A stretch of DNA of 64,000 nucleotides, from the NCBI RefSeq assembly GCF_002216065.1, contig NZ_CP022282.1:3348001-3412000 (forward strand), in the 5' to 3' direction. The position numbers and the translations under genes are program-made. Positions 57,571 through 63,881 of this stretch are shown here, in pieces. Positions within the stretch are counted from its first letter, which is position 1. The number at the start of each line of letters is the position of its first letter. The notes beneath the pieces are model-generated. The model had not been told where the DNA came from, made no database searches, and worked only from the letters and a program-made list of their open reading frames with translations. The DNA is from Chryseobacterium sp. T16E-39. GTDB taxonomy: Bacteria > Bacteroidota > Bacteroidia > Flavobacteriales > Weeksellaceae.

Positions 57571-57753
57571 TTATAAACCTCCGTGAGGAGCGCACGCAAC
57601 AGGAATGAGGCAGTTGGGAGTGTTACAAGGATTAGCCGGGCATCTGGTGCCTGGGCATATTGCTGGAACACTGCTTCCAGGTACAGGACAGTTTACATTT
57701 CCTCCTAGTACTGATCTTAATCCGGCTCTTGACATTTTCTTGAAATTTTTCAT
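57571..57753 (-). CDS. GG-leader bacteriocin-like peptide, six-cysteine core (copy 1)
   Basis: 60 residues from the ATG at 57753 (MKNFKKMSRAGLRSVLGG); a longer in-frame reading to 57819 includes the TAGATTTG box (57781-57788) and is rejected. The leader ends in Gly-Gly at 17-18. The about 42-residue core is Pro/Cys-rich with six cysteines and the block CPGTRCPANPC. It shares the leader and the CPGTxCPxxPC block with the next peptide gene, so the two arose by duplication. No transporter or modification enzyme is nearby. Proposed as a secreted, possibly disulfide-bonded or modified peptide; unproven. Confidence 0.8.
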   Translation of the reverse strand: MKNFKKMSRAGLRSVLGGNVNCPVPGSSVPAICPGTRCPANPCNTPNCLIPVACAPHGGL

Positions 57754-57780
57754 AATATTGTTTAGATTAGTTTGATATCT

Positions 57781-57788
57781 CAAATCTA
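57781..57788 (-). promoter_or_regulatory. Candidate -7 element of peptide gene copy 1
   Basis: TAGATTTG on the minus strand, 27 nt upstream of the ATG at 57753. Confidence 0.4.
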
Positions 57789-57940
57789 GTCTAAAAGGGA
57801 TCTTGTATAACAGGACCAATTGATAAGCGTTTTGATAATCTTCATAAGTGTCGCTTAATTACTGTTATCCGTGATTATAGATATAAAAATTAAACCGAAT
57901 AATCTGCCTTATCCATTTTTAATGATTAGAACAGAAAGCA

Positions 57941-57994: not shown

Positions 57995-58183
57995 TTATCC
58001 TATCTCAGGAGTCCCACAATCTTCTGAAGATCTTATACAGAATGGTCTTGCCTTACAAGGGTCTGGTGGGCATACTGTTCCGGGACATAGGGCTGGAGTT
58101 CCACTTGGCATGGGGCAGGATACATATGTTCCGCCGTTGATAGATCTTAAGCCGTTTCTTGAAAGTTTTTTCAAATTTTTCAT
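57995..58183 (-). CDS. GG-leader bacteriocin-like peptide, six-cysteine core (copy 2)
   Basis: 62 residues: leader MKNLKKLSRNGLRSINGG with Gly-Gly at 17-18, then a core of about 44 residues with six cysteines (SC, LC, VC, PC, FC, DC) and the block CPGTVCPPDPC. Leader and block match the neighbouring copy 1; the C-terminal part differs. It has its own terminator, so the two copies are separate units. Upstream I see no clear TAnnTTTG box. Function unknown; the same caveats apply as for copy 1. Confidence 0.8.
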   Translation of the reverse strand: MKNLKKLSRNGLRSINGGTYVSCPMPSGTPALCPGTVCPPDPCKARPFCIRSSEDCGTPEIG

Positions 58184-61169: not shown

Positions 61170-61789
61170 TAGTCATAGTTAGTGGAAGCTTAAACCGATA
61201 CCTTACAGGGTCTCCATTGATGATTGCAGGAGAAAATTTTTCTGAAAGAGAGTATAATGCGATTTGAGCCTGTCGGTTAAAGGTAAAATTATCTCCCTGT
61301 GCTTCTACATGGCTGATGCTTCCATCTTTTTCTACGATAAATGCAACAAGAGCTTTTACGGTTTTAAGTTCTGAATATACACCGTCTATATAAAAAGATG
61401 AGCGACCTCCTGTCGCAAAGCATTAATACCACCTGGATAATCAGCTGATTTATCTGTAATAGGAAATATTTCTGCAGCCTTTTCCGGGAAGTTTTTCTTA
61501 TTTTCTAATTGTAATCTGCTGAGGTCTTCTGTATTCTTTACTTTTAACAAGGCTCCGATCAATGCTACATTTTCAATACTATCCATTTTTTTCATGAAAA
61601 AAGAAAATCCTCTTTAATGGAAGCTTTTTTGAAATTGCCTGTTTCTGCATCGAATTTTTTCTTAAACTCAGTGTTCAGCATATTCCTATGCTGGTTATAG
61701 TAAGATTTCACCATCTTAAATTCTTCCTTCTGCTGAGAAAAGAAAAAGGAGGAAATAAAGCAGCTTAAAAAAAGAAATAACAATTTCAA
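61162..61789 (-). pseudogene. TonB-like energy-transducer protein gene broken by two frameshifts
   Basis: Three frames read in order give one product: signal peptide and N-terminus (61789-61592, MKLLFLFLSC to SIKEDFLF), the middle (61595-61386, MKKMDSIENVALIGALLK to EVAHLF) and the C-terminus (about 61393-61162, DGVYSELKTVKALVAFIVEK to LPLTMTIE). The last part has the shape of a TonB C-terminal domain (VAFIVEKDGSI, then FSPAIINGDPVRYRFKLPL). Restoring one A to the plus-strand A6 run at 61597-61602 and one to the A5 run at 61392-61396 would fuse all three frames. Both breaks are in homopolymers, so sequencing error is a real alternative to true decay. Confidence 0.8.
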
Positions 61790-61844: not shown

Positions 61845-62765
61845 TCAATCCTCCAGATAGCTGTTTAAAGATTCCTTTAAATGATTGCGGATGTCATCAA
61901 CTAAAGACTTAGGTTCTAATACCTTTACCTCTTTTCCATAAGAAAGGATTTCTTGCATAAAGTCATAGGTAGGGTGGAGGAAAAACTCAAAATATATATC
62001 TTCAGGAGTTTCTTTTGTTTCTTTTTGAGATTGGTGAAGCGGGAAGCTCTTTATGTATTCTCCCTGATGTCTCGTACATTTTATAGAGATTTTCTGAGGC
62101 TTTTGTTCTGCCAGATTCATGACTCCGAAAGCATTCTTAAAGTGCTCCCTGAAGTTATAATTGTATTTTTCCCGAAACTTGGTTTTGCTTACATCCAGAT
62201 AATTGATCCGGTCCAATCCAAAAGATTTTAATACTTTATCATTGGTATCTATAGCAATTAGGTACCAGCGGTCTTTAGATTCTTTTAACGCCAAAGGATG
62301 TACTTTTCGCGAAGTCATCAATTTGTTTTTATAATTGTAGTGTTCAAATGAAACCACTCTTTTATTCCGAATGGCAAAAAATAAGTCGTAGAAATGATCT
62401 ACTCCTGTAGGTTTTCGGGATTCGAAGAAAATGTAACCTGAAAAATCGGGATGTAAGTTTAAAGCATTACTTACCTGGAAAGATTCCAGAAGTTTTTGAT
62501 TGTATTCATCCACTTCCATTGTCGGGCGGCTTTCGATATAATAACGGTTGTCGCCTTTCTTTTTATTATGAATAGAAAGGTTAAAAAGATCAGAAATCTC
62601 GCGAATATCTCTCTGCAGTGTACGAATAGAATAACTTTTAATATCCGCATCCTGAAATTCAAAAGAATTTAATAGATAGTCCTCCAGCTGGGAATAGGTA
62701 GCCGGAGCGCTTTCTAATTTTTTGATGATCAGAGCATATCGGGTAAGGTAAAAGTCTTTTTTCAT
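61845..62765 (-). CDS. WYL-domain transcriptional regulator
   Basis: 306 residues from the ATG at 62765 (MKKDFYLTRYALIIKKLE); seven upstream codons are rejected because the TATATTTG box at 62784-62791 lies there. The N-terminal winged helix (about 1-75, YSIRTLQRDIREISDLF) is followed by a WYL domain (about 115-200; VVSFEHYNYKNKLMTSRKVH and RWYLIAIDTNDKVLKSFGLD) and a WCX-like C-terminal extension (about 215-306). WYL regulators bind nucleotide or nucleic acid ligands and often control DNA-damage or phage-defence genes. An 18-bp dyad overlaps its promoter. Confidence 0.93.
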   Translation of the reverse strand: MKKDFYLTRYALIIKKLESAPATYSQLEDYLLNSFEFQDADIKSYSIRTLQRDIREISDLFNLSIHNKKKGDNRYYIESRPTMEVDEYNQKLLESFQVSNALNLHPDFSGYIFFESRKPTGVDHFYDLFFAIRNKRVVSFEHYNYKNKLMTSRKVHPLALKESKDRWYLIAIDTNDKVLKSFGLDRINYLDVSKTKFREKYNYNFREHFKNAFGVMNLAEQKPQKISIKCTRHQGEYIKSFPLHQSQKETKETPEDIYFEFFLHPTYDFMQEILSYGKEVKVLEPKSLVDDIRNHLKESLNSYLED

Positions 62766-62783
62766 GGGGTTATATTTCTGTAA

Positions 62784-62818
62784 CAAATATAGAATCTTAC
62801 TGCGACAAAACGTGTCGT
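62784..62818 (-). promoter_or_regulatory. Promoter plus dyad element of the WYL regulator
   Basis: TATATTTG on the minus strand (62791-62784) preceded, 9 nt upstream, by an 18-bp element that reads TGCGACAAAACGTGTCGT on the plus strand (62801-62818). CGACA and TGTCG form a perfect dyad with a 5-nt centre. The element would cover the -33 region, a typical repressor or autoregulatory position. Confidence 0.65.
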
Positions 62819-62867
62819 GTTTTATTTTTGTGGATAAGTTTTATAATTGATTTAATTAATAAGTCCC

Positions 62868-62938
62868 AGCTATCCAATAATTGTGAATGGGTGTTCAAAT
62901 ACATTATGGAGTTAAAATTGATTAATTATCGGATAGCT
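62868..62938. repeat. 15-bp inverted repeat between the acidic-peptide gene and the WYL gene
   Basis: AGCTATCCAATAATT (62868-62882) and AATTATCGGATAGCT (62924-62938) pair along 15 positions with one A:C pair on this strand, which is a G:U pair in the minus-strand transcript. The loop is 41 nt. It lies just beyond the acidic-protein stop and before the WYL promoter. Confidence 0.6.
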
Positions 62939-62963
62939 ATAGAACTTGATTACTAACATGTGT

Positions 62964-63137
62964 TTATAAATAGATATCCCCTTCGAGGATTTCATTATCA
63001 AAATCTTCTTTGAAGAAGAGTTCAATGTCGTCGAGATAGTTTTCATAGTCTATCTCTACATTTTCGATATCACTCCACTCAATAGTGTAGAGATCTGTAT
63101 CGAAAATTATATCTGGATTGTGATTTGGTGTTTCCAT
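62964..63137 (-). CDS. Small highly acidic protein (57 aa), unknown function
   Basis: 57 residues from the ATG at 63137 (METPNHNPDIIFDTDLY); upstream in-frame codons to a TTG at 63200 are unlikely. By my count 19 of the 57 residues are Asp or Glu and only one is Lys, with no Arg, so the protein is strongly anionic. Aromatics and Ile/Leu alternate with the acids (WSDIENVEIDYENYLDDIEL), suggesting amphipathic structure. I do not recognise a family. Promoter and operator match those of the WYL gene downstream. Confidence 0.65.
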   Translation of the reverse strand: METPNHNPDIIFDTDLYTIEWSDIENVEIDYENYLDDIELFFKEDFDNEILEGDIYL

Positions 63138-63250
63138 GTTTGGTGTTTTATGGGTTGAACATATTTCTGGCTGTCCAGCATTAATTAATGGTGAATTCAA
63201 TAGTTTTTAAAAGTTTTTAAAGATTGTCTTTTGTGTCTTGTTTTATATCT

Positions 63251-63285
63251 CAAAAGTAGGAACGAGGTGCGACAAAACTTGACGT
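63251..63285 (-). promoter_or_regulatory. Promoter plus second dyad element, upstream of the acidic protein gene
   Basis: TACTTTTG on the minus strand (63258-63251), and again 9 nt upstream an 18-bp element reading TGCGACAAAACTTGACGT (63268-63285). It matches the WYL-gene copy at 16 of 18 positions, and CGACA/TGACG retains most of the dyad. The geometry relative to the -7 box is identical in both places. Confidence 0.65.
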
Positions 63286-63323: not shown

Positions 63324-63881
63324 TTAGGAAAAATCGTTGATATCTATCTCATCCCCGATCAATAGGATGATATCCATTTCCGAAAGCATTGATTTAAGCT
63401 TCACACCACCAATATTCAGATCCGGGTTTGAAAGGATATGCCACCATACTTTTTGAATAAAATCTTCAAAATTCATTTCTGAAGTATAATGTTGGGTTTT
63501 GGTTTGTGCCGTTAATGCTAATAATTGCTTTGTAATATCCCGGCATTCATTCATTTTTCCTTCATGAGGCAGCAAAACGTTGAGTACACAATTTTGTGCA
63601 TTATAAAGAAGGTTTGCTGCAATTTTCACTTGATTTTTCTTGCCATTAAATCCCCTTTCTTCACTGATCTTTCCTGCTAGTATATTAGCTCTAAAACCGG
63701 CTATTTCAGAAACCTCACTGATGTTATTATTGGAAAAGATTTCCTCTGCTGATTTTAACCATGAAAGTGTCTTTTCAACAAAAAAAGGATCTTTTTTTTC
63801 TAATGAAGAAACGATGCCCGGAAATTCCATCAGTTTTTCTTTTAGCTGGCTAACTAAAATAAATTGTGATTTTTTGACCAT
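63324..63881 (-). CDS. Helical protein of unknown function
   Basis: 185 residues, predicted by composition to be mainly alpha-helical and cytoplasmic (no signal peptide or membrane segment). A Trp pair (KVWWHILSNPDLNIGG, near 143-158) and an acidic C-terminus (IGDEIDINDFS) are the only landmarks. No family recognised. Its ATG is 1 nt after the stop of the upstream partial gene, so they form an operon. Confidence 0.6.
   Translation of the reverse strand: MVKKSQFILVSQLKEKLMEFPGIVSSLEKKDPFFVEKTLSWLKSAEEIFSNNNISEVSEIAGFRANILAGKISEERGFNGKKNQVKIAANLLYNAQNCVLNVLLPHEGKMNECRDITKQLLALTAQTKTQHYTSEMNFEDFIQKVWWHILSNPDLNIGGVKLKSMLSEMDIILLIGDEIDINDFS

Follow-up and report, generated by a model that had tools for sequence, protein, structure and literature searches.

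A dyad promoter element that may define a regulon of a WYL-domain regulator and secreted toxin-like genes in Chryseobacterium

WYL-domain proteins are widespread transcription regulators, and to our knowledge few of them have a known regulon. Here we analyse a stretch of 64,000 nucleotides (nt) from Chryseobacterium sp. T16E-39 (contig NZ_CP022282.1, positions 3,348,001 to 3,412,000; this whole stretch is the window, and its genome is denoted G000), in which near-identical 18-bp dyad elements precede the gene of a WYL-domain regulator and an open reading frame (ORF) for an acidic protein of 57 amino acids (aa). These elements are probably sites of the adjacent WYL protein, which would act as an activator replacing the usual -33 promoter box and would drive its own gene together with genes for secreted toxin-like proteins. 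The motif, its fixed spacing, its promoter position, its conservation, its co-occurrence with the WYL gene and the set of its targets can be read directly from sequence.

On the minus strand, the WYL promoter reads ACGACACGTTTTGTCGCA-N9-TATATTTG, with the dyad (site 1) at 62801..62818, the -7 box at 62784..62791, a predicted +1 at 62779 and a leader of 14 nt. The promoter of the acidic ORF (62964..63137, minus strand), a candidate regulon member, reads ACGTCAAGTTTTGTCGCA-N9-TACTTTTG, with the dyad (site 2) at 63268..63285, the -7 box at 63251..63258, a predicted +1 at 63246 and a leader of 109 nt. A preliminary description of this DNA had placed the two 18-mers at these positions, identical at 16 of 18 bases, one before the WYL gene and the other before the acidic ORF, each followed after exactly 9 nt on the minus strand by a TAnnTTTG box (62791-62784 and 63258-63251); the window sequence bears it out on each point.

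The bare 18-mer is only moderately unusual: with up to three mismatches it occurs twice in the window, where 0.26 occurrences are expected, a number reached in 3 of 100 shuffles, and has 38 matches in the genome against 22 for a reversed control, so many of its loose matches are chance. That modest rarity is what favours a fortuitous likeness between two AT-rich promoters. When only those matches that also fit the -7 box are counted (composite pattern ACGWCRnGTTTTGKCGYA-N9-TAnnTTTG, at most three mismatches), 16 copies are found in the genome and none with the reversed control; the duplicated geometry is, as had been claimed, unlikely by chance once the box is included. Given these counts, and a site at each of 80 orthologue loci in relatives (below), we reject chance resemblance, the probability of which we regard as negligible. 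A palindrome at G000:C1:1043479, lacking a -7 box at +9, was taken as a chance occurrence.

The genome-wide search for the element upstream of TAnnTTTG, suggested in the preliminary description, did not turn up a multitude of copies detached from promoters: all 16 sites lie outside ORFs of at least 100 aa, and every one stands upstream of an ORF on the same strand (two sites share one ORF), with the ATG 18 nt past the box for the WYL gene and 20 to 441 nt past it at the other 15 sites. In a logo of the 16 sites the dyad core CGnC-N7-GnCG is present throughout (CGnC at positions 2, 3 and 5; GnCG at positions 13, 15 and 16), the centre is T-rich, every site has TAnnTTT and 14 have the final G, the sequence upstream is rich in A/T, and 14 of 16 have an A at the would-be +1. 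As the sites were chosen with a pattern that held the motif bases and allowed up to three mismatches, the only features of the logo that do not depend on this selection are the A/T-rich sequence upstream and the A at +1. A TAnnTTTG box at -12 to -5 is described for Flavobacterium psychrophilum (in excerpts of PMC9723704); with the T of TA set to -12, which gives the predicted +1, the dyad here occupies -38 to -24 and is centred near -31. No TTTG at -33 is seen in the logo of the 16 sites, nor was there a peak at the ordinary -33 spacing among 60 boxes; the corresponding count in the window and the orthologue loci, which orthologous copies distort, was set aside.

The 9-nt spacing was built into the composite pattern (and so into the counts for this genome, the family, the order and the genus) and into the test of 40 further WYL genes described below. 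It was measured on dyads located without reference to the box, in the window and the 80 orthologue loci: 130 of 142 distinct dyads are followed at 9 nt by an exact TAnnTTTG, and no other offset between -60 and +60 was seen more than once. With up to one mismatch in the box and three in the site, 182 cases fall at 9 nt, 13 at 11 nt (overlapping TATATATTTG) and 5 elsewhere. These cases are not independent, since many are orthologous copies, yet they cover several different genes.

The association between the site and the WYL gene extends across genomes. The best 80 of 137 relatives found were kept as orthologue loci (79 from Chryseobacterium, the closest being strain sp. ISL-6, at 97% identity), and the site lies upstream of the WYL gene in all 80; before the acidic ORF, a homologue of which occurs in 23 of these loci, it is kept in 22 of 23. 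Orthologues in 148 genomes of the family were defined by at least 57% identity, a visible gap separating them from the remaining genomes, at 39% or less. The 39 genomes with an orthologue carry a mean of 11.6 sites (2 to 28) versus 0.76 (0 to 4) in the 109 without, and the reversed control gives 16 matches in total across the 148. In five genera that are mixed for the gene, every orthologue-bearing genome has more sites than every genome lacking it, and none of 20000 within-genus permutations reaches the observed sum. One result weakens the link: when only sites more than 25 kb from the WYL gene are considered, genus g9 keeps the direction of the difference with p 0.02.

One genome of the genus to which G000 belongs, G350 (two contigs, 100% complete), has no orthologue, its best WYL match being 24% identical over part of the protein. 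Within this genus, at up to one mismatch, 28 orthologue-bearing genomes have 7 to 26 sites and G350 has none; at up to three mismatches, G350 has 1 site, a weak match with three mismatches, versus 17 to 23 in eight others. The preliminary description had proposed a WYL regulon, and comparative genomics lends support to it: the site is kept before the gene, its copy number tracks the orthologue within genera too, and G350 is essentially free of sites.

The same geometry also appears upstream of more distant WYL genes. Among 40 further WYL genes from relatives, 17 have it (mean 0.065 and maximum 1 in 200 shuffles), a count in which locus L230 contributes almost no upstream sequence and the sites accepted at L210 and L241 fit the full motif poorly; the site-bearing genes make up 6 of 8 at 57 to 79% identity and 11 of 32 at 29 to 40%. 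At the level of the order (296 genomes, with WYL presence compared in 18 of them and in the 148), nine genomes of family f7 have the site, and in seven of the eight tested a site has a WYL homologue (26 to 39% identity) no more than about 4 kb away; genome G200 of f7 and the lone hits in f3 and f9 fell outside the comparison. As a separate observation, the upstream regions of two distant WYL genes (L229 and L247) each hold a single palindromic dyad flanked on either side by a -7 box at 9 nt, an arrangement that would suit divergent promoters.

These distributions bear on whether the element might instead be read by something else, for instance by an alternative sigma factor or by an activator that is unlinked to the WYL gene but co-inherited with it, the WYL gene being a mere target. 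We infer binding by the WYL protein, and its gene bears the site as any target would, which is the strength of this alternative. The box, however, is the housekeeping TAnnTTTG; the site is at the WYL gene in 80 of 80 loci, whereas the neighbouring cluster genes are present in 11 to 25 of 80 (within 6 kb beside the WYL gene); site number tracks the orthologue within genera; and distant WYL genes in other genera often bear sites, as do the surroundings of the homologues in f7. We consider another reader of the element improbable.

Four more sites of this genome lie near the WYL gene, before the acidic ORF, a DUF2589 protein, a patatin-like phospholipase and an M15 peptidase. The DUF2589 gene, followed by two ORFs without assigned function, has its site just beyond the window (G000:C1:3413417-3413451), and its gene group ends with a 185-aa ORF (63324..63881, minus strand) without a site of its own. 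In the orthologue loci, allowing up to four mismatches, a site lies within 450 nt upstream of 22 of 22 M15 peptidase genes, 24 of 24 patatin genes, 11 of 11 DUF2589 genes and, as given above, 22 of the 23 acidic ORFs; homologues of the 185-aa ORF, an internal negative control, have none (0 of 11), and random 450-nt stretches of the same loci contain one in 183 of 5000 cases.

Eleven distant sites lie elsewhere in this genome, apart from the WYL-adjacent cluster. Four of the distant operons begin with a head protein of about 540 aa (with a type IX secretion tail in the one tested), after which come two or three RHS-like proteins (about 1000-1200 aa), the last of which in each operon is a DUF6443 protein, one ending in a JAB-like toxin domain. 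Three sites precede a pair of related giant ORFs (1246 and 1313 aa), which start MPSLAYFTS (G000:C1:1640500-1660400; L200), two before the first and one before the second. A site at G000:C1:3161241 precedes a 203-aa ORF with a Gly/Ala-rich, bacteriocin-like C-terminus (L036:5446-6057), and further site-bearing ORFs encode a 233-aa protein, a 457-aa lipoprotein-like protein and a 497-aa type IX surface protein. In seven chosen genomes with complete site lists, 30 of 38 DUF6443 genes (six matches below 100 bits having been excluded) have a same-strand site within 10 kb upstream, versus 0.75 expected, and 26 of the 30 linked sites lie 4.6 to 5.6 kb upstream, which in the genome of the window is the operon head. 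No DUF6443 match was found in G350, which is essentially without sites, so that in this genome the absence of sites goes with the absence of these targets. Among the targets of the 16 sites, none was recognised as a DNA-repair gene. The most conserved distant targets are predicted operons for secreted toxin-like proteins, and the target set as a whole looks like an arsenal for antagonism or of the cell surface. A second pair of a type IX protein and a large ORF (L204:9767-14878), adjoining a site-bearing operon, has no site itself (the best upstream match has 9 mismatches).

The regulator itself (61845..62765, minus strand, ATG at 62765; 306 aa) comprises an N-terminal winged helix-turn-helix (wHTH), a WYL domain (Pfam PF13280, 5e-13) and a WCX domain (PF25583, 5.4e-09), the two Pfam matches being above cut-off; queries used 61845-62768, which adds one leading Pro codon. 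Its AF2 model (mean pLDDT 83.7, pTM 0.68) matched DriD and PafBC (E 7e-13 to 2e-10) ahead of BrxR and CapW (E 2e-09 to 5e-07) in Foldseek, and its nearest solved sequence relatives are PafB and DriD (PDB entries for PafBC: 7p5x, 9fnd, 6sj9). VIA-align ranked DriD first and scored BrxR as high as PafC; because PafC and BrxR were not separated in this way, and whole-model superpositions had a large root-mean-square deviation, the structure comparison speaks to family, not mechanism. PADLOC assigned the protein to CRISPR-associated WYL models, with weaker matches to Cas3c, AbiEii and CARF-WYL over the same part. The genome has five WYL genes, none of them adjoining this one as a PafBC-type partner would, and no such site was seen upstream of the other four.

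We infer that this WYL protein binds the sites, acts as a dimer, activates rather than represses, and senses a signal. In the proposed mechanism, a dimer of the regulator would sit on the CGnC-N7-GnCG dyad at -38 to -24, substitute for the absent -33 box and recruit the housekeeping polymerase, whose sigma factor would read TAnnTTTG at -12 to -5. It would thereby activate its own gene and the adjoining acidic-protein, DUF2589, patatin and M15-peptidase cluster, as well as scattered genes mostly for secreted proteins, chiefly the operons of type IX-secreted and RHS/DUF6443 toxin-like proteins. Replacement of the -33 contact is suggested because the site covers the stretch used by DriD and PafBC, at constant distance, and no TTTG is found at -33. 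The preliminary description had offered as an alternative a special promoter class with the dyad in place of the -33 box; it was probably right in this too, since such replacement is how a regulon of this kind would work, which makes the two proposals one idea.

Among known systems, the closest likeness is to DriD, a WYL activator of the SOS-independent DNA damage response in Caulobacter crescentus, which is likewise a single wHTH-WYL-WCX chain and is among the top Foldseek matches. Excerpts of a preprint (PMC12340889) describe its site as a 20-bp pseudo-palindrome that overlaps -35 and keeps a constant spacing to -10, the -35 boxes of these promoters being poor; a dyad over the -35 region at constant distance (-38 to -24; +9 in 130 of 142) is found here as well. 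The likeness is one of position, and the box differs, being TAnnTTTG here. The DriD targets named in the same excerpts include didA, bapE, recJ and dnaG, in contrast to the secreted toxin-like genes here, and DriD is reported not to activate its own promoter, whereas the WYL gene here bears a site. In the mycobacterial PafBC system of sigma adaptation, PafB reads a -26 motif and PafBC inserts between promoter and sigma domain 4, with PafC holding the latter (excerpts of PMC11804915); the right arm GnCG here lies at -27 to -24. PafBC, however, is a heterodimer with a non-palindromic motif (excerpts of PMC6789036), whereas one gene and a palindromic dyad are found here, and its regulon is a DNA damage response, unlike the targets here. 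The spacing TTGTC-N12-TA found here equals that of the RecA-NDp consensus (TTGTC, 12 nt, TA), which was not found written out in the three papers searched for it.

A different comparison is offered by BrxR and CapW, WYL regulators of phage-defence genes with the same domain family and inverted-repeat sites, and the WYL protein might be a cognate repressor of this type, which sits on the promoter and holds its own gene and the toxin-like genes silent until a signal releases it. Several points weigh on that side, and hence against activation: inverted repeats are bound by BrxR, which represses the promoter that precedes its gene (excerpts of PMC9122601), autoregulation and costly targets suit a repressor, co-occurrence of site and WYL gene fits one equally well, and VIA-align gave BrxR a score as high as that of PafC. 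A repressor, however, needs no single distance to the box, which is exact in 130 of the 142 dyads; the BrxR repeats, the operator in BrxR of pEFER, lie downstream of the predicted -10 box (excerpts of PMC9122601), whereas the dyad here is upstream of the -7 box; BrxR and CapW rank below DriD and PafBC in Foldseek; and the nearest solved relatives, PafB and DriD, are both activators. We thus regard repression as rather unlikely, although a more serious contender than another reader of the element, and favour the WYL activator.

A bolder hypothesis, which we put forward only tentatively, is that the WYL protein of Chryseobacterium and relatives senses single-stranded DNA or a similar distress signal and switches on an arsenal encoded across the genome, made up of secreted polymorphic toxins and enzymes acting on the envelope, by way of promoters with a dyad for the -33 box. 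This would be a WYL counterpart of SOS-driven colicin release in a genome in which no LexA exceeds the curated cut-off (a single weak match of 162 aa was found), with sigma adaptation general for WYL activators across phyla; for single-stranded DNA as the signal there is precedent by analogy. Searches of the literature on WYL with Flavobacterium, Chryseobacterium, type IX secretion, and Bacteroidetes activators or motifs gave no description of the regulon among the matches listed (for the last, the best 12 of 131), most subscription journals and bioRxiv preprints being outside their scope; one paper was listed for DUF2589 and none for DUF6443.

The interest of the system is that dozens of genomes show, at the level of sequence, one protein together with one promoter code of 35 bp and a defined set of targets; for comparison there are G350, a case of natural loss, and genera mixed for the WYL gene. 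The code predicts co-regulated RHS and type IX toxin-like operons, and the regulon gives the small uncharacterised genes of the cluster a context and offers a way to approach the triggers of toxin deployment in this phylum. The generality of DriD- or PafBC-style activation becomes, in turn, a question of promoter spacing.

Several smaller observations concern the proteins of the site-bearing genes and their neighbourhood. No family exceeded the curated cut-off in Pfam and NCBIfam for the acidic, 185-aa, 227-aa, 203-aa, 233-aa and 457-aa proteins, nor in Pfam, the one database used for it, for the 1246-aa protein; the acidic and 185-aa ORFs had no PADLOC match. Two short ORFs at 61386-61789 (minus strand) overlap in different frames and may be a single interrupted gene. 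Two further small ORFs at 57571-57819 and 57995-58183 (minus strand) have related leaders ending in Gly-Gly and Cys/Pro-rich tails, and resemble precursors of secreted bacteriocin-like peptides.
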